This document shows positions 227 to 47,908 of a stretch of 64,000 bases of DNA, piece after piece (position 1 is the stretch's first letter; every line of letters starts with the position of its first letter). The translations under genes were made by a program, and so were the position numbers. The stretch spans positions 62,001 to 126,000 of the IMG/VR virus record IMGVR_UViG_3300020596_000011. One strand, given 5' to 3'. This stretch comes from a virus. The notes beneath the pieces were generated by a model, which did not search any database, was not told the origin of the DNA, and saw nothing but the letters and a program-made list of their open reading frames with translations.

Positions 227-525
227 TCAACCGCGCCCACATCGCCCACGCGCAGCTCGTTTTCACAAGGACCCATGACAGTGTATTCAGCCGATCCAAC
301 CTTGGAAACCAAGCTTCGAAACGGAATCTCTTCACCAAGCTCAGTAAGGACAACAAAACGACTCTCGGAGATCGACACAACCACTCCTCGCAGCGACCGT
401 AGTACGTTCTTCCCTGTGCTCATTGAAAGAAGCAAAGTGTCCCCTTGCTCAAAGTATTCTGGATGGCTCGGGTCTTGTAAAAAATTTACAGCGTTTCCCT
501 TAAGTAGTTCAGGCGTCGAGTTCAT
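223..525 (-). CDS. Unknown 100-residue protein
   Basis: No family recognised. The middle (residues 28-75) is rich in short alternating hydrophobic segments, as in a small beta-barrel or SH3-like fold, and the end is acidic. It overlaps the upstream gene by 17 bases and the downstream methylase by 4, so it belongs to a tightly packed operon with them. A role linked to the methylase is only a guess from position. Confidence 0.75.
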   Translation of the reverse strand: MNSTPELLKGNAVNFLQDPSHPEYFEQGDTLLLSMSTGKNVLRSLRGVVVSISESRFVVLTELGEEIPFRSLVSKVGSAEYTVMGPCENELRVGDVGAVE

Positions 526-1210
526 TCAATTCTCCACTATCAATTCGTAGTTTTAGCTCTTCCATGGCGTTATCTTTTAACACTTTCTCTGCTACTATTT
601 CAGTAACTTCACTGTAGGCATCGGTCAGCAACACGGCAGACTTTAGTCTCCATCTTAAAAAATCTATTTTCTTTAGGAATCTTTTAAAGTCTTCTGGTAC
701 ATGGTGCGTATTCATAGTCGCGTCTTTAAGATACAGGTCTTGCCACCTCGACGGGATCTCAACAACGTCTAGATTTCCGCCAGTCATGTCTAACCAGTCG
801 AGCGCAAGAATGACCTCTATTTTTTCTTCTGCCGCTAGCTTAAGCAGGAGGCAGTCACATATTGCTACTTGCTTCTCTTTAGAAAGAGCACTGTAGGCCG
901 CGTTTTCAATCATTAGCGGGTTCGCCCACACCTCGACAAGCACCGCGTCTAGCACTTCTCTAGGCGCTTCGGTGGAATCTAGCTTTTTTTCTACTGCCAT
1001 TTCGCATTCGTCGTAAAGCTGGAGTACCCGATAGTCTTGCTTGCAGCACAGCGAGATGTACTCAAACGTTTTATCAGCTAGTACGTCCATGCTCCAGCGT
1101 TCGTGCTGCTCCTCGATCTCCCACTTAACGTAGAGGTCTAGAAGGTCGTAGCCTCTTTGCGACCTTGGGGAAAGCTTTACGTACTTGGGGTGCTTGAATA
1201 TTCGTGCCAT
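509..1210 (-). CDS. Unknown 233-residue mostly helical protein
   Basis: No family recognised. The sequence is charged, largely helical in character and has no signal peptide or membrane segment. An AAGGA site lies just before the ATG at 1210. It is the first gene after the promoter and repeat at 1221-1272, and the two following genes overlap in sequence, so this is the head of a three-gene unit ending in the Dam-type methylase. Confidence 0.8.
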   Translation of the reverse strand: MARIFKHPKYVKLSPRSQRGYDLLDLYVKWEIEEQHERWSMDVLADKTFEYISLCCKQDYRVLQLYDECEMAVEKKLDSTEAPREVLDAVLVEVWANPLMIENAAYSALSKEKQVAICDCLLLKLAAEEKIEVILALDWLDMTGGNLDVVEIPSRWQDLYLKDATMNTHHVPEDFKRFLKKIDFLRWRLKSAVLLTDAYSEVTEIVAEKVLKDNAMEELKLRIDSGELNELDA

Positions 1211-1220
1211 GGTAATCCTT

Positions 1221-1272
1221 TTTCAAACGTCGAGAACTTGAATGTCTTCGGTAACAGTGCGGTAGACTTTAG
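1221..1272 (-). repeat. Truncated copy of the helicase gene 3' end (direct repeat, copy B)
   Basis: This 52-bp block matches 2083-2134 with 3 mismatches, in the same orientation. Read on the minus strand it still encodes the last 15 helicase codons (KVYRTVTEDIQVL, then D instead of E, V, stop) without a gene in front. The two copies flank the lipoprotein gene, so the repeat marks where that gene came in or a duplication occurred. Confidence 0.9.
1245..1271 (-). promoter_or_regulatory. Sigma-28-like promoter
   Basis: Minus strand: TAAAGTCT, 11 bases, ACCGAAGA. It has the same spacing as the other sites of this class in the window and lies about 35 bases before the ATG at 1210. It is inside the repeated block, so the promoter was copied together with the helicase end. 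Confidence 0.55.
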
Positions 1273-1277
1273 AAGGT

Positions 1278-2051
1278 CTACCTCAGAAGGAGCTGAATAT
1301 TAAGCTCAAGCCCCCCCGTCGACCAGCCGCCCACGTGGATGCCGACCAATCGCCCAGCACCGTCAAAAACGGGCGCGCCGCTGGAACCGCCCGCAGCGGC
1401 AGCGTCGGTTATCATCGCATTGCTCCAATAGACGCCCCCTCCTGAGTAGCTCTCGTCCGTCACTGATCCGGCGGCGAATTGCACATCGTTGGTCAAGTCT
1501 AGCGGAAAAGATGCTGTGACAGTCAAATCCCCTAATTTCGGAGCGTAGTCTTTAGATTCGCTGAACCCCTGCAACGCAAGTCCCGCAGTGTTCCAAGCGA
1601 TTCCCGAAATTCGTGTAACGTCGCGCGAGCCATCTTGAAAAGCCGTACCACCCGCGCCTACAAGAGTTGGGCCGGAGTAGTAGAGCATGTTGGTGCAACC
1701 GGAGGTTACATGATGTGCTGTAAGGATTCGCCCGTCGTGTAGTTTTGTCCCTGTGCCTCGCGTCGCATTTGAAACACATTGCAAGTCAAGAATTGACGCG
1801 CGGTTTGGGATAATAGCCTGTAAGATAGAGACCAACGCTGCTGTATAAGATTGACCGTCCTTTCCTGTAATACCTGTATTTCCTGTTTGACCGTCCTTTC
1901 CTGTAATACCTGTATTTCCTGTAATACCTGTATTTCCTGTTTGACCGGCCTTGCCGCTCTCTCCAGATGGCCCTGGCCTACCGTCCTTACCGTCTGATCC
2001 GCACGCTGCGAGAAATAAAGAAGCCAAAGTGTACAAGCGGGGGTAATTCAT
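1278..2051 (-). CDS. Collagen-like lipoprotein with a trypsin-type protease domain
   Basis: A 257-residue exported lipoprotein. Residues 1-17 form a lipoprotein signal ending in the lipobox LAAC (lipidated Cys17). Residues 18-67 are Gly-X-Y collagen-type triplets. Residues 80-257 resemble a chymotrypsin-fold peptidase: LTAHHV at 110-115 holds the histidine and GGSSGAPV at 221-228 the serine. The usual aspartate is not evident, since the matching segment near 152-160 reads NTAGLAL, so activity may be lost or use another residue. It would sit on a membrane of the infected cell. The gene lies between two copies of the helicase gene end, as expected for an acquired accessory gene (moron), with its own promoter in the upstream copy. 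Confidence 0.85.
   Translation of the reverse strand: MNYPRLYTLASLFLAACGSDGKDGRPGPSGESGKAGQTGNTGITGNTGITGKDGQTGNTGITGKDGQSYTAALVSILQAIIPNRASILDLQCVSNATRGTGTKLHDGRILTAHHVTSGCTNMLYYSGPTLVGAGGTAFQDGSRDVTRISGIAWNTAGLALQGFSESKDYAPKLGDLTVTASFPLDLTNDVQFAAGSVTDESYSGGGVYWSNAMITDAAAAGGSSGAPVFDGAGRLVGIHVGGWSTGGLELNIQLLLR
1849..1950 (-). repeat. Short tandem repeats coding collagen-like triplets
   Basis: Several near-identical units built on TTTCCTGTAATACCTGTA (plus-strand reading) code the ITGNTG and ITGKDG triplets of the lipoprotein. Near-perfect DNA identity suggests recent slippage or recombination that could change the stalk length. Confidence 0.85.
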
Positions 2052-2082
2052 AATGTTCTCCTAATAGCCTAATCGGCGGTTG

Positions 2083-2134
2083 TTTCAAACTTCTAGCACT
2101 TGAATGTCTTCGGTAACAGTGCGGTAGACTTTAG
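2083..2134 (-). repeat. Direct repeat, copy A: intact helicase 3' end
   Basis: This is the original version of the block repeated at 1221-1272. Here it is the true end of the helicase gene and at the same time holds the promoter for the lipoprotein gene. Confidence 0.9.
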
Positions 2135-3521
2135 CTCTTTGTTGAGAGTACCCTAAGAATTTATCTCGATACCCGTAACCTTTCAAGGTGACGTCAAAGA
2201 AATATACGGCGTCCTTACCAGGACTCAGGCGAAGCCCTCGTCCTAGCACTTGTCTTGTCAAAGCTTCGCCGGAAGTATTCACAACTGATATCATGGCGTC
2301 TATGGAGGGTACGTCAATCCCAGTTCCCAACAATGCACTATTAGAGATCAGCGTGCCTACCTTCCCGTCTTTAAACATTTTGAAAGGGTGCCGAAACCCG
2401 CTATGCGCAACCATATGCTTTGTGCCGTAGCGCTCATTGTAAGCAGTGGCGAATTTCTCCCCTGGCTCTCTTGTCTTAAAGAGCACAAGAGTTCTCAGCC
2501 CTCTGTCTTCTAGAGCCTTCAGGGTGTCACAAAGATAATTTATGGCCGCAGACGAGCTGGCAAGAATGCCGTAAGCTTTTTGCTGGTTCATGGCATCGGG
2601 CAGGGTAGATTTTTGAGAGGAGAGATTAATCATAAAAATCCGAGGGGGTGTGAGAAACTTATGCTCAAGTCCCCAAGCGGAAGTCTTTTGATAAACTACA
2701 GGGCCGCAGAGGGCATGCACGCCTACGACTAGGCTGTCAGCTCTCACAGGAGTGGCTGTGAGCCCGTAGGCATGAGAAGCGCCCGAGCCGAGAATGGCCG
2801 CCGAGTAGGAATCCGATCCCACCCCATGGCATTCATCTGAAACCATGACATTGAACATATCGCAATAGCCTTTCGCCGAAGCGATAGTGGTTACTGCGCA
2901 AGGAGCACCTTCTTTAAACTTTGCTCCGCCGCCTATGCCACACGTTCCCGGGATAACTTCCTTTAATGCTTTAACAGTTTGTTCCACAAGGTCAATTGTA
3001 GGCACAATCACCAAAGGACGCTTCCCACTCTTAATAGCGGAGTGGCAAAGCATAGCGATGATCAGGGACTTACCCCCGCCCGTGAACACATCGAGCATTG
3101 CTCTCTTGAAAAGGAGCAGCTCTTTTACAGCTTCGACTTGGTAGGCTCTAGGCTGTTTGGCATAGGTGACGTCGAGCGGGTGGTATATGATTTCATTGTT
3201 CAGGTGTCCAGACACCTCCTCACAGAGCCACCACAGCCCTGGAGGACAGGACAGCGATCCGTCTGCGTTTTCGGCGTAGTAGCGAACGAGCAAGTTTTTC
3301 CCTAAGCGCCTTATTTCCCTCTCTACCCAACGCGCTTGCACGTCGCTGGTTGACGGCTTGTTTTTAAGGGCCTTGATTTGGTATTCCACGGAAGAATCTA
3401 CGGCGGTGATAAAGCGTTTGAAAGGGTCGAGGTCAGCACCTGTGACAATGAGTTCCTGCCCGTCGGGTCTTAGGGTTCCTTTAGTAAACGGAAAAGCCGT
3501 AAATGATTCAATTTTTTTCAC
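2085..3521 (-). CDS. SF2 DNA helicase, UvsW-like
   Basis: A 478-residue superfamily 2 helicase. Seen motifs are FTGGGKS (Walker A, near 146-152), IVPTIDLVEQ (Ia), SDECHG (DEAH-type motif II, near 228), GLTATP (III) and QVLGRGLRLSPGK (VI). Length and motif set match phage UvsW-type helicases, which unwind branched DNA and R-loops during recombination-dependent replication. The start is GTG at 3521 with AAGG upstream. A small membrane-protein gene lies 24 bases upstream and shares the promoter at 3710-3736. The last 15 codons double as promoter DNA for the next gene. Confidence 0.9.
   Translation of the reverse strand: MKKIESFTAFPFTKGTLRPDGQELIVTGADLDPFKRFITAVDSSVEYQIKALKNKPSTSDVQARWVEREIRRLGKNLLVRYYAENADGSLSCPPGLWWLCEEVSGHLNNEIIYHPLDVTYAKQPRAYQVEAVKELLLFKRAMLDVFTGGGKSLIIAMLCHSAIKSGKRPLVIVPTIDLVEQTVKALKEVIPGTCGIGGGAKFKEGAPCAVTTIASAKGYCDMFNVMVSDECHGVGSDSYSAAILGSGASHAYGLTATPVRADSLVVGVHALCGPVVYQKTSAWGLEHKFLTPPRIFMINLSSQKSTLPDAMNQQKAYGILASSSAAINYLCDTLKALEDRGLRTLVLFKTREPGEKFATAYNERYGTKHMVAHSGFRHPFKMFKDGKVGTLISNSALLGTGIDVPSIDAMISVVNTSGEALTRQVLGRGLRLSPGKDAVYFFDVTLKGYGYRDKFLGYSQQRAKVYRTVTEDIQVLEV
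2107..2133 (-). promoter_or_regulatory. Sigma-28-like promoter inside the helicase 3' end
   Basis: Minus strand: TAAAGTCT, 11 bases, ACCGAAGA, identical to the copy at 1245-1271. It lies about 55 bases before the lipoprotein ATG at 2051. Confidence 0.5.
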
Positions 3522-3545
3522 GTTATCAGCCTTATGACGCGGTTG

Positions 3546-3659
3546 TTAATCAGAGTTGGGCGGGCTGAAGATTGTCGCTATGACGCCCGCTAAGACGAGC
3601 ACCCCGATGAAAATTGCAAAGAACAGGATTGGGGCGAGCAGAAGACCAATTAGAAACAT
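3546..3659 (-). CDS. Small single-span membrane protein (37 residues)
   Basis: An ATG at 3659 preceded by AAAGGACGTGATC opens 37 codons. Residues 2-30 are almost all hydrophobic, forming one membrane span, with a short polar tail (SPPNSD). It sits between the sigma-28-like promoter and the helicase gene. Function unknown; with one span and no coiled coil it could be a small membrane regulator or a holin-like peptide. Confidence 0.7.
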   Translation of the reverse strand: MFLIGLLLAPILFFAIFIGVLVLAGVIATIFSPPNSD

Positions 3660-3709
3660 GATCACGTCCTTTTACCGAAAAACTTAAACATCTCGAACTT
3701 CCTAGCCTG

Positions 3710-3736
3710 TTATCGCCACGCGTTCTTCAAACTTTA
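3710..3736 (-). promoter_or_regulatory. Sigma-28-like promoter
   Basis: Minus strand: TAAAGTTT, 11 bases, GGCGATAA. Compared with the known FliA consensus (TAAAGTTT, N11, GCCGATAA) it differs at one base. It lies about 50 bases before the small membrane-protein gene and drives it and the helicase. Confidence 0.75.
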
Positions 3737-3783
3737 GCTTTTTCTAGAATAAATCTTACGATTGACTAAAGCAATAGTTGGAA

Positions 3784-3791
3784 GGTAAAAT
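3784..3791 (+). promoter_or_regulatory. GTAAAAT-class (late) promoter
   Basis: GGTAAAAT, 29 bases before the ATG at 3821. This copy also has a TTGACT 18 bases upstream of TAAAAT, so an ordinary sigma-70 reading is possible here. Confidence 0.55.
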
Positions 3792-3820
3792 AGCACCTAA
3801 GTGTGTTAAGGAGTTAACGA

Positions 3821-4612
3821 ATGGCGTATAGAATCTACGGGGTAGGCTCGGTTCAGTCTCCCGACAAAGTGGGCGAAACTGTAAATCTAGAGGGCTTGGA
3901 TACGTCCAACCTCCGCTATTTGAGCGACGAGCACGCCACCGACGACGTTGGTGGGGGTATGTTCGCAATATTAGGCGCTATTACCAGCTACAAGAAAATA
4001 TTTAAACAAGAGGACGCCCAAACGCCTAGACAAAAGCGCTGCTGGGACGTCGCAAAAGCTCCTTTCCTTTACTTTGAAGCTGAGCTTCTTCACAGCCACC
4101 CGAACGCGGCTAGCGCAGAAGCCCTTATCACATGGTGCGCACAACACCCTGAGAATGCTTTAAAAATTGGAGCTTCGATCGAAGGCGGTATCGTAAAGAG
4201 GGGTGACGCTGACGCAAAACACCTCGAGCAAACTGTAGGCGAGGGGATTGCCCTTACGATAAAGCCCATGATGCCGCGTTGCTCAGTGTTTCCCATGCTT
4301 GATTTACAAAAGAGTAACGTTCAAGTAGCTTACCCTAAAGCCTACGTAGCGCTCTTGCAGAAGTCGTCTAGTGATAAAGGGTTCATCGAGTTGAAGAAAA
4401 GCGAACAAATCCAACTTATTGCCGCGCGGCTAGCTCAGCTAAAGAAATCAGCCGAAGCTATGACATCGAGCATGAAGTGCAATCACTGCGGAAAACCAAC
4501 GTCTTTCTTCATCGGTAGCGATACACCCAACCGCTGCCCTTCGTGCTCTGCGGCGTTTTCAATGACTTCGCTCTGGAAAGCTGTTAAAAAAACAACAAAG
4601 GATGGTAAATAA
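3821..4612 (+). CDS. Possible virion maturation protease (XkdF-like) with C-terminal zinc ribbon
   Basis: A 263-residue protein. Residues 34-130 resemble phage XkdF/prohead-type serine proteases: a DEHATDD segment, a hydrophobic FLYFEAELLHSHPNA block with histidine, and IGASIEGG, which matches the family's serine-containing 'SIxG' block. Residues 221-246 carry two CxxC pairs (CNHC and CPSC) typical of a zinc ribbon, which is unusual for that family. It opens a plus-strand run of virion-type genes behind a late-type promoter. The protease call is tentative because the capsid gene it would serve is not nearby. Confidence 0.45.
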   Translation: MAYRIYGVGSVQSPDKVGETVNLEGLDTSNLRYLSDEHATDDVGGGMFAILGAITSYKKIFKQEDAQTPRQKRCWDVAKAPFLYFEAELLHSHPNAASAEALITWCAQHPENALKIGASIEGGIVKRGDADAKHLEQTVGEGIALTIKPMMPRCSVFPMLDLQKSNVQVAYPKAYVALLQKSSSDKGFIELKKSEQIQLIAARLAQLKKSAEAMTSSMKCNHCGKPTSFFIGSDTPNRCPSCSAAFSMTSLWKAVKKTTKDGK

Positions 4613-4989
4613 TGTCTAGAAGTGTATTCATGGACCCAGCAGTGTCCGCTAACATCTGCCAAGAAGTGCTTGCTCAGTTCTCAGACTTCTCAGGATCTAC
4701 TCAAGTCAACCCCCTTCGGTTGCTACAGATCACGGAAAACATCCATCAGCTTTCGATCTCGAACCAGACAGACGCGGTTATCAGAATTGTTCTTACCGCT
4801 CCGGGCCGTGTAGCCGATAAAGGGCTCACTACCGCAAAATTGGTCACAATTGCTGCTCTAAGCGCATTTACGTTTGACGGCACAGTTTTAGAAAATCTTC
4901 AATTTCCGGCTGGTTCCACTTTTTGGGTATATCCCGCAAGTGCCGTACCTACCCTTGGCTACCTACAACTCTTCTCAACGGGGATTTAA
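4612..4989 (+). CDS. Small virion-type protein (125 residues)
   Basis: The ATG overlaps the previous stop as TAATG. The protein is beta-rich with many Thr, Ser and Ala and ends in a hydrophobic strand pattern typical of phage tail or decoration proteins. No family recognised. The next gene follows after 2 bases, so the three genes from 3821 form one unit. Confidence 0.7.
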   Translation: MSRSVFMDPAVSANICQEVLAQFSDFSGSTQVNPLRLLQITENIHQLSISNQTDAVIRIVLTAPGRVADKGLTTAKLVTIAALSAFTFDGTVLENLQFPAGSTFWVYPASAVPTLGYLQLFSTGI

Positions 4990-4991
4990 CC

Positions 4992-5639
4992 ATGAGCTTT
5001 GGATACAACGGCGTTGGTTTTGGTGGATCAGGCGGCGGTGGAGGGGGCGGAGGAGGCATCTCTGGCGTACCTTCATTTACCGTATCCTCCTCAGGATCAC
5101 TTACTTCTTTGGTTTCAGCCGTGATTGGATCTTTGGGTCGAGTACCCACGGAGTCCACGACTTACGTGCTTCACTCACTTCCAGCCAGCAACATCTCGAA
5201 CTGGTTAGCTTTGCCTTCTGGTTCTTCGGCCACACAGGGCGCAATAGTGTCCGCTTATCAGAACACATCAGGAAGCACGATTGCTGCTTTCTTACCAGTG
5301 CAGATCAACTCGGCTACCGGCTCTCTCGCCCTTGTAGACGTGTCTGTACTAGATAGTTCACAAGACACCTTCGGCGTCACTCAGGCAGCGATTGCCAACG
5401 GCGCATACGGGAATGTGGTCATGGAAGGTCGCTTAGAAAATATTACAGGCGGCTTCTTGGCTGGGTCTGTTCTCTGGGTTGCCAAGAACGGCTCGCTCAC
5501 AGCCACAGCGCCTAACGCAGGGATCAATGGTTTTGTGTCCGGTGACTTAGTCATTAAGGTAGGGGTGGTTGTTCCAAACGTCGGAAACGCGCTGCTTGTC
5601 GACCTCGTAGTTGAAATGGACATTATCGGCGCTCTCTAA
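4992..5639 (+). CDS. Virion surface or capsid-fibre-like protein with glycine linker
   Basis: A 215-residue protein starting at the ATG 2 bases after the previous stop. Residues 12-22 are a glycine-rich linker, followed by beta-rich sequence. The last 90 residues have the repeated pattern seen in phage head-fibre and decoration proteins (GNVVMEG, LAGSVLWVAKNGSLT, then Val-rich strands). It probably projects from the virion surface. Function inferred from composition and position only. Confidence 0.65.
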   Translation: MSFGYNGVGFGGSGGGGGGGGGISGVPSFTVSSSGSLTSLVSAVIGSLGRVPTESTTYVLHSLPASNISNWLALPSGSSATQGAIVSAYQNTSGSTIAAFLPVQINSATGSLALVDVSVLDSSQDTFGVTQAAIANGAYGNVVMEGRLENITGGFLAGSVLWVAKNGSLTATAPNAGINGFVSGDLVIKVGVVVPNVGNALLVDLVVEMDIIGAL

Positions 5640-6168: not shown

Positions 6169-6195
6169 TAAAGTTTTGTGGCAATTGTGCGATAA
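6169..6195 (+). promoter_or_regulatory. Sigma-28-like promoter
   Basis: TAAAGTTT, 11 bases, TGCGATAA: one of the closest matches of the class. It is 36 bases before the ATG at 6232 and directly after a terminator, so it starts a new transcript. Confidence 0.75.
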
Positions 6196-8828: not shown

Positions 8829-8855
8829 TAAAGTCTGAAAGCAAAACGGCGATGA
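8829..8855 (+). promoter_or_regulatory. Sigma-28-like promoter
   Basis: TAAAGTCT, 11 bases, GGCGATGA, 20 bases before the ATG at 8875. Confidence 0.65.
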
Positions 8856-8874
8856 AGAAATAACGGAGGTGACT

Positions 8875-10599
8875 ATGGCGGCGGGGAAAAAATTAACAGC
8901 TGAAGACGTAGCAAAAGTCGCACAAGCAAAAAACCCAAACCTGCGCTTGGTCGAGAGTTCTTACGTTGACTTATCCACCCTGTGCATCTGGGTGGAAGAG
9001 GGTTGGGGTGAGTTTGAGCGAAAGCCTTCTATCATTCTTTATTCGAACAGCGTGTATCACCCTGAACACGGCAGGTTGCGTAAAAATGCAATTTTGGCAA
9101 AAGCGCAACAAAAACCGGAAAGCAAACAAAAGCGTAAAACCACTAACCTTGCCAAGTATGGACACGAATACATTTCACTCTGCCCACATGTACGTAGTAA
9201 AGTTTGTGCAACTAACTTAGAACGTTACGGTCATGAAACCCCGCTTTTGAACGCCGACGTTCAAGCTAAGATTAGTGCAACTAACTTAGAACGCTACGGT
9301 CATGAAAACCCCCTTTTGAACGCCGACGTTCAAGCTAAGATTAGAGCAACTAACTTAGAGGCGTATGGCGTAGAAAACGTCCTGTCGAGTAGTCTTATAC
9401 AAGACAGAGTAAAGACTACTAATCTACAGCGCTACGGGTTTGCAAACGCTGTGCAAGCCGAGGCGGTTCAGAGTAAAACGAAAAACACTAATTTACAGAG
9501 GTATGGCGCTGAATACGGTCTGTCAAACCCTGATGTGCAGCGTAAACGGAGACTTACTAACGTTGCGCGCTACGGGTCTGCGCACGCTACATTACACCCT
9601 GCGGTCAGAGCAAAACTAAGTGCTACCAATATCGCGCGATACGGCCACCAAAGTAGTTTCGGTAATTCAGACGTCCAGAAGAAAATTTACAGAACTAAGA
9701 TGCTTCGCGGGCTATACAAACAGTCTAAAGGTGAACTAGAACTGAGAGACTTTTGTAAAACACTGGACCCCGACGCCCGTACAACCATGGCGTATTTAAA
9801 CAAGAAAGCTTTCCAAATTGATATTTTTCTGCCTTCTAAAAATATATGCATCGAATACAATGGGATGTTTTGGCATTCCGAGGGGAATAAAAAAAATTAC
9901 TCCGAAAAACACTTAGACAAGACGAAAGCATGCGCTTTACAAGACAGACGTCTCATACACATTTGGGAAACCGAATGGCACAACAAGCGCCCTCAAGTGG
10001 AAAACTACATCCGAAGCGTAGCGGGTATTTTTGAAAGAAGGATTCCTGCAAGAAAATGCCTAGTAAAAGAAGTTACTGATAAGGCGCAAGTTAAAGCGTT
10101 TCTTGACAGCAATCACTTATTAGGCGCGTGCCCGTTTTCAAAAGCGGTGGGCATCTTCTTGAATGAGGAACTCGTAGGTGTTGCTCTTTTGGGGAGGCAC
10201 CATCGAACAAACGTCCTTAACATTGCTAAGCGATTTGCTTTTTTAGCGGGTGTTCAGGTGATTGGCGGCGTGAGCCGTCTTACCAAACACCTTTTAGACG
10301 TCTGCGAATCCGATTCCCTCGTCACTTGGGCCGATGTCAGGCTAGGAGCGGCGTCGGTCTACACGTCCGCAGGGTGGACCTTAGATTCCACGTCGCGCCC
10401 TGACTATTTTTACTGGCACGAATCTCAAAAAAGAGTTGTTTCAAAGCAGCATTTTAAAGACCACCGAAAAAGTTCAACCGGTGTTTCCGAAAAAGATTTT
10501 GCTAAAACCCGGAGATGCCTACGGATCTGGGACTGTGGAAAACATAGGTTTCGTATCTATAAAGGCGGAATTCCTACATGCTCGCTTTCATCCCCGTAG
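8875..10599 (+). CDS. Homing endonuclease-like protein with TNLxxYG repeats
   Basis: A 574-residue protein of a family common as free-standing endonuclease genes in large phages. About eight tandem units of roughly 24 residues, each with TNL and RYG or similar, span residues 85-265 and probably read DNA. The segment near 318-375 (CIEYNGMFWHSE, then an HLDKTKAC helix and IHIWETEW) matches the EDxHD/Vsr-like nuclease fold with acidic and histidine residues. The C-terminal 200 residues resemble the accessory domain usual in this family. The ATG at 8875 has GGAGG at 5 bases. It has its own promoter and lies between virion and lysis genes, typical of a mobile gene. Confidence 0.85.
   Translation: MAAGKKLTAEDVAKVAQAKNPNLRLVESSYVDLSTLCIWVEEGWGEFERKPSIILYSNSVYHPEHGRLRKNAILAKAQQKPESKQKRKTTNLAKYGHEYISLCPHVRSKVCATNLERYGHETPLLNADVQAKISATNLERYGHENPLLNADVQAKIRATNLEAYGVENVLSSSLIQDRVKTTNLQRYGFANAVQAEAVQSKTKNTNLQRYGAEYGLSNPDVQRKRRLTNVARYGSAHATLHPAVRAKLSATNIARYGHQSSFGNSDVQKKIYRTKMLRGLYKQSKGELELRDFCKTLDPDARTTMAYLNKKAFQIDIFLPSKNICIEYNGMFWHSEGNKKNYSEKHLDKTKACALQDRRLIHIWETEWHNKRPQVENYIRSVAGIFERRIPARKCLVKEVTDKAQVKAFLDSNHLLGACPFSKAVGIFLNEELVGVALLGRHHRTNVLNIAKRFAFLAGVQVIGGVSRLTKHLLDVCESDSLVTWADVRLGAASVYTSAGWTLDSTSRPDYFYWHESQKRVVSKQHFKDHRKSSTGVSEKDFAKTRRCLRIWDCGKHRFRIYKGGIPTCSLSSP
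9165..9700 (+). repeat. Tandem repeats in the homing endonuclease gene
   Basis: About eight diverged units of about 72 bp coding TNLxxYG segments. The second and third units (9207-9350) are nearly identical in DNA, showing recent duplication. Confidence 0.85.
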
Positions 10600-10826: not shown

Positions 10827-10853
10827 TCAAGTTTTAAAAGAAACTTGCGATAC
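10827..10853 (+). promoter_or_regulatory. Sigma-28-like promoter
   Basis: TCAAGTTT, 11 bases, TGCGATAC, 23 bases before the ATG at 10876. Divergent from the promoter of the gene at 10786. Confidence 0.7.
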
Positions 10854-12581: not shown

Positions 12582-12608
12582 TAAAGTCTGACCAACTCTT
12601 GGCGATAA
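12582..12608 (+). promoter_or_regulatory. Sigma-28-like promoter
   Basis: TAAAGTCT, 11 bases, GGCGATAA, 22 bases before the ATG at 12631. Confidence 0.75.
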
Positions 12609-14272: not shown

Positions 14273-15499
14273 ATGCGCGGTAGTTATTTGGATTTATGGA
14301 ACACAGCAAAAGTGCTCGGTAACTGGTCAAACGAAACGAAACAAGCCGTCGATGCTATCGTGGCGAACAGAAGCAGATACGAGGAAGTACAGAACAAAAC
14401 AGGCGTACCTTGGTACATAGTAGCGGTGTTGCACAGCCTCGAGTCGAGCAGAGATTTTGGGTCATGGCTTGCGAACGGTGACCCTTTGACAGCTCCCACC
14501 GTACACGTTCCCGCAGGGCTCGGTAGAGGAATGTCCTTTCCAGTGTCGTTTGTCAAAGGCTGCGAAATTAGCCTAGCACACGCGGGTGTCCGTGGTTCCA
14601 CACATTGGGACGACCTGACTGTGCTTCTCGAAACACTAGAGGCATACAACGGGATGGGATATGTCCCGCGGCGAATTAATTCGCCCTACCTTTGGTCGGG
14701 TACCCAACACTATGCAAAGGGCAAGTATGTCGCTGACGGAGTGTGGGATTCTAACGCTGTCTCTGCTCAACTCGGCTGTGCCACTCTTCTTAAAGAAATT
14801 CAAAACAGGGGGCTCTTGAATATGGCAGACGTTACTCCCGTGGCTACATGGTTTGATTTTCAACGCGACGCTTCGAGAACAACAGTAATCACTGCGTATG
14901 CAGGACCGACACCTGTTGCGCAAGTAAAAACAAACATTAAGAAAGAGATTGTGAGTTTTCTGAATAAGTTTCCTCAAGCGGGATCTGTGCTGGTAGGGCT
15001 GCAAAGTAAGCCCATCCCTGTGGTAGCCGCTGCTCCCATTGCCGCTCCCATTGCCGCTCCTGTGCTCAGTTCTGTGAATTCAAAGATGGTCGAGTTTTAC
15101 AAAGTCAAGTCAAACTACGACAGAGTGTTCGACGATGTCATGCAATGGTACGGTACAACGTCGAACGGATGCGTCGCGTTTATGAGCACGGCTTTGCGAA
15201 TGACAGGGTATTCCGTCCCGATGGGCGAGATCAGTTTGGTAACCACCCCTTTCTCGGACTTCCTTATTTCAAAAAGATGGAAGCGGATATCACTTGACCA
15301 ACTCCTTCCGGGCGACGTCTGTTTCAGTATTGAAACGGACTATCCGGGCTACCCTTCACACACATACTGCTTTCTTAGTTGGGCAAACATCAGCACCAAA
15401 ACAGCTTGGATTATTGACAATCAGGGTTTTACCCACGAGCGAAACATGCTTGCTAACGGTCCGAAAGATGCGTTTCAATACGCCCTGAGGGCTGTGTGA
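14273..15499 (+). CDS. Two-domain cell-wall hydrolase: lysozyme-like plus papain-like amidase domain
   Basis: A 408-residue protein with no signal peptide. Residues 40-175 match a phage and proteobacterial muramidase-type family: VPWYIVAVLHSLESS with likely catalytic Glu57, then NGDPLTAPTVHVPAG, EAYNGMGY and SPYLWSGTQHY. An Ala/Pro linker (PVVAAAPIAAPIAAPV) joins a C-terminal domain with cysteine in SNGCVAF, LLPGDV and histidine in SHTYCF, the layout of NlpC/P60 or CHAP peptidases. It likely cuts both glycan and peptide bonds, as a second endolysin or a virion-borne enzyme for entry. It overlaps the next gene by 4 bases. Confidence 0.75.
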   Translation: MRGSYLDLWNTAKVLGNWSNETKQAVDAIVANRSRYEEVQNKTGVPWYIVAVLHSLESSRDFGSWLANGDPLTAPTVHVPAGLGRGMSFPVSFVKGCEISLAHAGVRGSTHWDDLTVLLETLEAYNGMGYVPRRINSPYLWSGTQHYAKGKYVADGVWDSNAVSAQLGCATLLKEIQNRGLLNMADVTPVATWFDFQRDASRTTVITAYAGPTPVAQVKTNIKKEIVSFLNKFPQAGSVLVGLQSKPIPVVAAAPIAAPIAAPVLSSVNSKMVEFYKVKSNYDRVFDDVMQWYGTTSNGCVAFMSTALRMTGYSVPMGEISLVTTPFSDFLISKRWKRISLDQLLPGDVCFSIETDYPGYPSHTYCFLSWANISTKTAWIIDNQGFTHERNMLANGPKDAFQYALRAV

Positions 15500-15714
15500 G
15501 ACGAGAAACCTTAGAGACGCTGAAGACCAAAGTCTCGTGCTCCTTTGAGCCGAGTAAGTTCTTAAGCTTAAACTGGAGCGAAGTTGAACAGTTGAAGAAA
15601 GACCTACTCGTAGCCGCTTTAGAGATTTGTAAGGGTAACCAAACCCACGCCGGTGACTTGTTAGGGATATCCAGCATTTGTGTCTCGAAGCTCCGCGTAG
15701 AGTACCACCTCTGA
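15496..15714 (+). CDS. Fis-like stand-alone DNA-binding protein
   Basis: A 72-residue protein. Residues 36-70 match the helix-turn-helix found in Fis and at the end of NtrC-type activators: LLVAALEICKGNQTHAG, then DLLGIS and a recognition helix near VSKLRVEY. No ATPase or sensor domain is present. GTG start, overlapping the previous stop as GTGA. Just downstream lie a perfect palindrome (15721-15741) and a sigma-54-type promoter (15800-15816), so it may bind there as an activator helper, competitor or self-regulator. Confidence 0.75.
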   Translation: MRRETLETLKTKVSCSFEPSKFLSLNWSEVEQLKKDLLVAALEICKGNQTHAGDLLGISSICVSKLRVEYHL

Positions 15715-15720
15715 ATCCAT

Positions 15721-15741
15721 GTGTCTAAAACATTTAGACAC
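15721..15741. promoter_or_regulatory. Palindromic operator
   Basis: GTGTCTAAA, aca, TTTAGACAC: perfect 9-bp arms. It is centred about 95 bases upstream of the predicted start of the sigma-54-type transcript, the usual place for an enhancer site, and 7 bases after the Fis-like gene. With no T run it is less likely a terminator. Confidence 0.7.
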
Positions 15742-15799
15742 TGGTGAATCCTTATACATCCCTAATTATCAAAAACTGAATGAAATTACTCTTGACGCC

Positions 15800-15816
15800 T
15801 TGGCACGCCACATGCA
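15800..15816 (+). promoter_or_regulatory. Sigma-54-type promoter
   Basis: TTGGCACG, 4 bases, ATGCA. The invariant GG and GC are exactly 10 bases apart and the -24 half is the full consensus; the -12 half has one mismatch. A TTGACG at 15792 has no good -10 at sigma-70 spacing. The predicted start near 15826 gives a short leader to the ATG at 15857. Confidence 0.6.
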
Positions 15817-15856
15817 ATAGAGGTATTGAGCAATGAAGCTCTTAGGAGAATTTGAA

Positions 15857-16414
15857 ATGTTGAACACACGAGCAATTTTTAACCTATACCCAAAAAACCC
15901 CGTCGCTAAAACCGTCCTCGACCACATGACGCTCAAAGGAAAAAACCAAGAAAAGTTTTACGTCGACGTATTGGCTAAAGAACTAAAGCTCGGTCGTTCG
16001 GACATCATCGAAGTCTTTAAGCTTTTGGAAAAGGACTGCAAAATGGGGTCATGGTTGCGGGGCCGAGTAACTCCGGGACAGACAAGATTCGAAGCAGTGT
16101 ATCGGATGGACGACGTAGAAAAGGCGATGCACAACCCAAAATTTGAAGCACCAGAGCCTTATAGGGCATCTCCGAAGAGGATAGTTTTTACAAAAAAGAC
16201 GCTCAAGCAAAAGAAGACGCCTCTGCAAGTAGCTCCTCGCGTAGCTCCCGTGGTTGAGCCGCTTCCAGTTGTAAAAGCGGTCGAGCCTGTCGCTACCGAG
16301 CCCGTGCTTATGAACATGCTAGTCATTCGTCCTGGTTTTGTTTTGCAAATTCCTTCTGGGCTTTCCGAAGCGGAACGTAAGAAAGTGGCTGACTTTGTAC
16401 AAATAGCGAACTAG
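15857..16414 (+). CDS. Winged-helix-like regulator candidate
   Basis: A 185-residue protein from the ATG at 15857, chosen for the AGGAG 8 bases before it (an ATG at 15833 is in frame). Residues 25-85 look like a winged helix: VDVLAKELKLGRSDI as helix-turn-helix, a third helix and a GRVTPGQTRFEAVY wing. A Lys-rich stretch and a Pro/Val/Glu-rich linker follow, then a small C-terminal domain. It is the only gene behind the sigma-54-type promoter, so it may be a phage transcription regulator. Confidence 0.65.
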   Translation: MLNTRAIFNLYPKNPVAKTVLDHMTLKGKNQEKFYVDVLAKELKLGRSDIIEVFKLLEKDCKMGSWLRGRVTPGQTRFEAVYRMDDVEKAMHNPKFEAPEPYRASPKRIVFTKKTLKQKKTPLQVAPRVAPVVEPLPVVKAVEPVATEPVLMNMLVIRPGFVLQIPSGLSEAERKKVADFVQIAN

Positions 16415-25786: not shown

Positions 25787-25813
25787 GTTTCGGACGTGTC
25801 CGTTCAGACTTTA
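25787..25813 (-). promoter_or_regulatory. Sigma-28-like promoter
   Basis: Minus strand: TAAAGTCT, 11 bases, TCCGAAAC, about 35 bases before the ATG at 25753. Confidence 0.65.
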
Positions 25814-34828: not shown

Positions 34829-34855
34829 CTATCGGCTAGGCGGTCACGGACTTGA
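34829..34855 (-). promoter_or_regulatory. Sigma-28-like promoter
   Basis: Minus strand: TCAAGTCC, 11 bases, GCCGATAG. Drives the zinc-ribbon gene and the small gene after it. Back to back with the GTAAAAT site at 34857. Confidence 0.65.
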
Positions 34856-45781: not shown

Positions 45782-45808
45782 TGTTCGGAGGGAGCGCGCA
45801 AAACTTGA
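45782..45808 (-). promoter_or_regulatory. Sigma-28-like promoter
   Basis: Minus strand: TCAAGTTT, 11 bases, TCCGAACA, 32 bases before the ATG at 45750. Confidence 0.65.
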
Positions 45809-47881: not shown

Positions 47882-47908
47882 GTATCGCCAGTCTGTGCCA
47901 AAACTTGA
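47882..47908 (-). promoter_or_regulatory. Sigma-28-like promoter
   Basis: Minus strand: TCAAGTTT, 11 bases, GGCGATAC, 28 bases before the ligase ATG. Confidence 0.72.

Follow-up and report, generated by a model that had tools for sequence, protein, structure and literature searches.

A Fis/NtrC-type helix-turn-helix gene, a palindrome and a sigma-54-like element in a large phage with sigma-28-like promoter motifs

The analysed window is a stretch of 64,000 bases, bases 62,001-126,000 of a 147,886-base virus record. Positions are those of the window unless a contig is named. At the locus studied here, two overlapping genes are followed by a perfect palindrome, a sigma-54-like promoter element and a further gene. 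The features are as follows.

14273-15499, plus strand: gene for a 408-aa protein without a family match, upstream of the Fis-like ORF and translationally coupled to it
15496-15714, plus strand: gene for a 72-aa stand-alone Fis/NtrC-type helix-turn-helix protein (HTH_8 match; aligned with activator C-termini)
15721-15741, no strand: perfect palindrome with arms of 9 and a loop of 3, lengthened as an RNA hairpin by CCA/TGG to 15718-15744
15800-15816, plus strand: sigma-54-like -24/-12 element, TTGGCACG-N4-ATGCA
15845-15849, plus strand: Shine-Dalgarno (SD) sequence AGGAG, before the ATG at 15857
15857-16414, plus strand: gene for a 185-aa, probable winged-helix DNA-binding protein, assigned by eye and from a low-confidence model

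The phage is of the large, contractile-tail type. Myxococcus phage Mx1 is a distant relative, matched by 18 ORFs that include counterparts of its capsid, portal, tail sheath, baseplate and GroEL genes. An 80-kb contig (G003) is closer than Mx1, yet divergent (32 matching ORFs, about 21-45% identity). The locus also occurs in another IMG/VR contig (160,071 bases), with 100% reported identity over 3.4 kb; it is thus invariant in the single sister contig found. No tRNA genes were found in the phage.

The Fis-like ORF starts with GTG at 15496, with GAGG just 5' of the start, and overlaps the stop codon of the 408-aa gene by 4 nt (GTGA, 15496-15499). Pfam searches gave an HTH_8 match of 25.2 bits, above the curated cut-off of 22, and neither an AAA+ nor any other domain. 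These data agree with the sequence-only reading, which had described a stand-alone Fis/NtrC-type protein lacking an ATPase domain. This was the sole HTH_8 match in the whole contig. Residues 30-59 of the protein aligned with profile positions 2-31 of 42, and the domain is therefore incomplete, the match ending at the recognition helix. That helix reads SSICVSKLR where activators have SRRTIYRHL and similar sequences, and most of the usual basic residues are gone.

The closest sequence matches were the C-terminal domains of sigma-54 activators. The NCBIfam models for FlbD and NtrC matched, as did Fis models, and the genes at three matching bacterial loci encode, by sequence, activators with an AAA+ domain. 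Identity with activator C-termini clusters in the core ALEICKGNxTxAxxLLGI, the helix-turn-helix core that the phage protein shares with the C-terminal HTH_8 domain of NtrC and FlbD; in contrast to these activators, it has no receiver or AAA+ domain and its recognition helix is short of basic residues. Like the Fis nucleoid protein, it is small with a C-terminal HTH_8-type core, but it is shorter (72 aa) and scored weakly against the Fis nucleoid equivalog model (19.9 bits; cut-off, 99). Because the recognition helix is divergent and the Pfam match ends there, it is uncertain that the protein binds with Fis/NtrC-type specificity. The helices ahead of the recognition helix remain, and mixed dimers with a host activator are conceivable.

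The best start of the 185-aa gene was 15857, preceded by AGGAG. Profile searches with its product gave no family match. The sequence-only reading had a winged-helix gene following the -24/-12 element; the 185-aa gene does follow it, and the winged helix itself is plausible, as judged by eye and from a low-confidence model (pLDDT 41). Single-sequence structure models of both small proteins were too weak to back DNA binding, and a Foldseek search with the Fis-like model (pLDDT 59) was uninformative (best E 2.3). Neither the 72-aa nor the 185-aa protein had a tblastn match in phage records. No HTH_8 protein was found in relatives picked by capsid or baseplate, some of which are fragments. A scan of bacterial genome contigs matched only sigma-54 activators of unrelated bacteria and pointed to no host.

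The palindrome reads GTGTCTAAA-ACA-TTTAGACAC. Its perfect 9-bp arms are as first described; the gap to the Fis-like stop codon is 6 bases, where 7 had been counted. It is a single copy in the contig, with the next-best site at 4 mismatches. We observed 11 perfect inverted repeats in the phage (arms of at least 9, loops up to 8), compared to 3-10 in all in shuffled genomes. Six of the 11 lie between genes, and every one of these six starts 4-26 nt past a stop codon. We compared RNA folding at the 58 gene ends that leave 35 nt or more of free space, and the signal where the Fis-like gene ends ranked third in strength (z -4.6).

A stem-loop thus follows the gene end, as in an intrinsic terminator. 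There is no U tract after the stem, the full stem being followed by TGAATCCTTA, and a terminator scan of the region called no terminator-like site. Since the U tract is missing, the hairpin would serve at the 3' end or in processing and would not be a canonical terminator. The palindrome resembles the 3'-end hairpins of phage operons in being a strong stem-loop 6 nt past a stop codon, and differs from them in being A+T-rich and perfect and in lacking the U tract. For the palindrome, a role as a transcript-end hairpin is no less probable than one as an operator. The dyad is perfect and free of G-U pairs, which fits a DNA operator just as well.

A role of the palindrome as an operator conserved across viral contigs was considered and rejected: most of its 43 stretches there lay within long open frames, and the sister contig was the sole one in which the dyad adjoined a Fis-like gene. 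A dyad of the form TGTCTAAA-N3-TTTAGACA, with varying inner bases, recurs within open frames of ~296-330 aa in many viral contigs (L029, L031, L034, L043, L045 and others).

The sigma-54-like element reads TTGGCACG-CCAC-ATGCA and has the GG-N10-GC layout. It is present as first described, 58 bases past the palindrome and not 59. It fits the -24/-12 consensus, with a perfect -24 half and one mismatch in the -12 half (consensus YTGGCACGNNNNTTGCW). Within the 148-kb contig it ranked first among sigma-54-like sites and was the sole one with at most one mismatch to YTGGCACGNNNNTTGCW and both GG and GC intact. In shuffled sequences, sites of this quality numbered 0.45 per genome, and the 9.4 kb of upstream regions had 0.017. 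The corresponding p of about 0.017 is nominal, being that of one motif picked after reading and uncorrected for the many motifs that a reader could name. The low chance expectation is therefore suggestive, not proof.

If the element is real, RNA would start near 15827, giving a 30-nt leader with the SD sequence, and the centre of the dyad would lie at about -96. Activators usually bind at about such a distance upstream in the usual layout of sigma-54 promoters. A sigma-54 promoter activated from an upstream site would be compatible with the spacing of palindrome, -24/-12 element, SD sequence and ATG. With RpoN-dependent promoters the phage site shares GG-N10-GC, a perfect TTGGCACG and the upstream dyad, but it is single and putative and has no known activator. 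No AAA+ sigma-54 activator domain scored over the cut-off in the phage, and a host activator would thus be needed. The region held no sigma-70-type promoter, and its best TAAAATA-like motif scored only 5.3 bits. A 10-mer common to two leaders, TTGACGCCTT, was as frequent in shuffles (59/1000) and was rejected.

We performed a two-block unsupervised motif search on 78 upstream regions of the phage. It returned CTaAAGTyT-N12-cCGATAaC with rigid spacing, a layout that is, judged by sequence, that of flagellar sigma-28 (FliA) promoters. In E. coli, the sigma-28 boxes are TAAAGTTT-N11-GCCGATAA. Allowing up to 3 mismatches, we counted 17 occurrences of this pattern in the genome; simulated sequence with matched dinucleotide composition led us to expect 1.9, and other spacers gave 1-3. 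Within upstream regions and with up to 4 mismatches, spacer 11 gave 17 sense sites, which mostly lay 19-40 nt ahead of a start codon, and any other spacer gave 0-2. The sites in the window are as follows.

3710-3736, 25787-25813, 34829-34855, 45782-45808 and 47882-47908, minus strand: sigma-28-like sites from the motif search
6169-6195, 8829-8855, 10827-10853 and 12582-12608, plus strand: sigma-28-like sites from the motif search

The 80-kb relative G003 had six sigma-28-like sites with at most 3 mismatches, two of them exact, against five in a backward-read control. Mx1 had no such site. No Pfam match to sigma factor region 2 was found in the phage, and the region-4 match was sub-threshold at 11.7 bits. 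As no sigma factor was detected, the likely reader of these sites is a host FliA-type factor. The motif has the same two boxes as flagellar FliA promoters and Bdellovibrio attack-phase promoters, with the difference that it stands upstream of many phage genes. It is absent between 15715 and 15856.

Of the 140 attack-phase promoters mapped in Bdellovibrio bacteriovorus, 92 are preceded by a FliA-type motif, TTAAG-N16-CCGATA (PMC3627812), and the bacterium also encodes an RpoN-like factor (PMC3464611). A Bdellovibrio-type host would be one possible fit. The sigma-28-type promoter set is the striking regulatory feature of this genome, both more surprising and more solid than the proposed sigma-54 control. 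Genome-wide use of such promoters would link infection to swimming cells, and dependence on host FliA is testable. We found no description of a phage lineage with sigma-28-type promoter motifs in the open-licence papers searched.

Similar arrays were observed in other viral contigs. A 30-kb contig (L096, IMGVR_UViG_3300010392_003462) has 11 sigma-28-like sites with at most 2 mismatches within 5 kb (458-5038), four of them exact. L167 and L173 also carry arrays, the latter with three exact sites. A second, weaker motif class in the phage, (G)TAAAATA(G), stands ahead of several genes, that of the capsid among them, and resembles a T4-late-type -10 box; sites lie upstream of L002:2404, of window positions 3821 and 6882, and of others.

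Overall, we favor a lineage-specific end-of-operon unit, made up of a coupled Fis-like gene, a 3'-end hairpin and a separate downstream gene, and we hold this tentatively, at a little under an even chance. The Fis-like protein would be made by translational coupling to the 408-aa gene. The transcript would then enter the ~12-pair hairpin formed by the palindrome, whose most likely role is to mark or protect the operon's 3' end. The 185-aa gene behind the hairpin, probably DNA-binding, would be transcribed by read-through or from a promoter of its own. As for the Fis-like protein, it would most likely be a local regulator with a changed recognition helix that binds some site in phage DNA. We infer from the features described above that this protein binds DNA and that the hairpin acts at the 3' end; any working of the sigma-54-like element is likewise inference.

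The end-of-operon unit is consistent with the HTH_8 score, the activator-type relatives and the 4-nt overlap with the upstream gene. It also accords with the position of all six intergenic repeats after stop codons and with the folding rank of 3 among 58. The dyad elsewhere is not beside a Fis-like gene, the sister contig excepted, and the recurrent promoter motif is sigma-28-like and missing from this region. Counting against the unit are the absent U tract, the lack of a called terminator-like site and a dyad that is equally operator-like.

A functional sigma-54 promoter is unlikely, though the best placed of the alternatives. Host RNA polymerase with RpoN would occupy 15800-15816 and start near 15827. 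The promoter would be opened by a host enhancer-binding protein sitting on the palindrome, and the Fis-type protein would compete for that site or dimerise with the activator. The rank of the site in the genome, its expectation of 0.017 in upstream regions, the SD-bearing 30-nt leader, the dyad with its 3-bp spacer at a typical distance and the kinship of the Fis-like protein with activator DNA-binding domains all speak for such a promoter. Set against these are a lone site whose motif was picked after reading, the diverged recognition helix and the lack of an activator in the phage; the position of the dyad is equally explained by a 3' hairpin. Competition with or recruitment of a host activator, as first proposed, is not supported: the recognition helix is diverged, the palindrome has the position of this phage's 3' hairpins, the sigma-54-like site is a lone one of marginal significance, no activator was found in the phage, and its evident promoter class is sigma-28-like. 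The proposed sigma-54 control stays hypothetical; if true, it would be a control layer that our search of the open-licence literature did not turn up in phages.

Somewhat more doubtful still is an autoregulatory operator, on which the Fis-like or the 185-aa protein would repress or activate the gene at 15857 without sigma-54. A perfect, single-copy dyad between two probable DNA-binding genes is what such control would look like, but its position fits the 3'-end hairpins of this phage. The second copy expected of a regulon is missing, and the one further candidate for a shared element was no more frequent than chance.

A chance assembly of a degenerating host-derived helix-turn-helix fragment, a palindrome and a -24/-12 match with no joint function is improbable: the diverged recognition helix, the lack of HTH_8 in the relatives tested and the 3-10 repeats in shuffles compared to 11 observed are compatible with it, but the ORF is intact, coupled and SD-bearing, its domain scores above the cut-off, and its end folds strongly. 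We give as little weight to a phage wired twice into the host flagellar hierarchy, in which sigma-28 promoters would serve many genes while a sigma-54 promoter with its dyad and a bare FlbD/NtrC-type domain, titrating or pairing with the host activator, would steer a late switch; the host would perhaps be a motile, Bdellovibrio-like predator with a FliA-run swimming phase.

Further observations concern the rest of the genome. The terminase-like gene (L004:10949-13411) and the GroEL-like gene (L006:5184-7814, minus strand) match Mx1 only in part and look broken by long inserts, which may be inteins. Short repeat-like proteins that resemble one another (MDYQAEFLQAVKSGDLDTVKRLVEA...) and look ankyrin-like by eye form two arrays, at L003:4767-9604 (minus strand) and L004:4654-8780 (plus strand). 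A 576-aa protein at window positions 8869-10599 has DUF7487 repeats and a weak Mom-like stretch below the cut-off, and the protein at L002:4053-5579 has a similar start.
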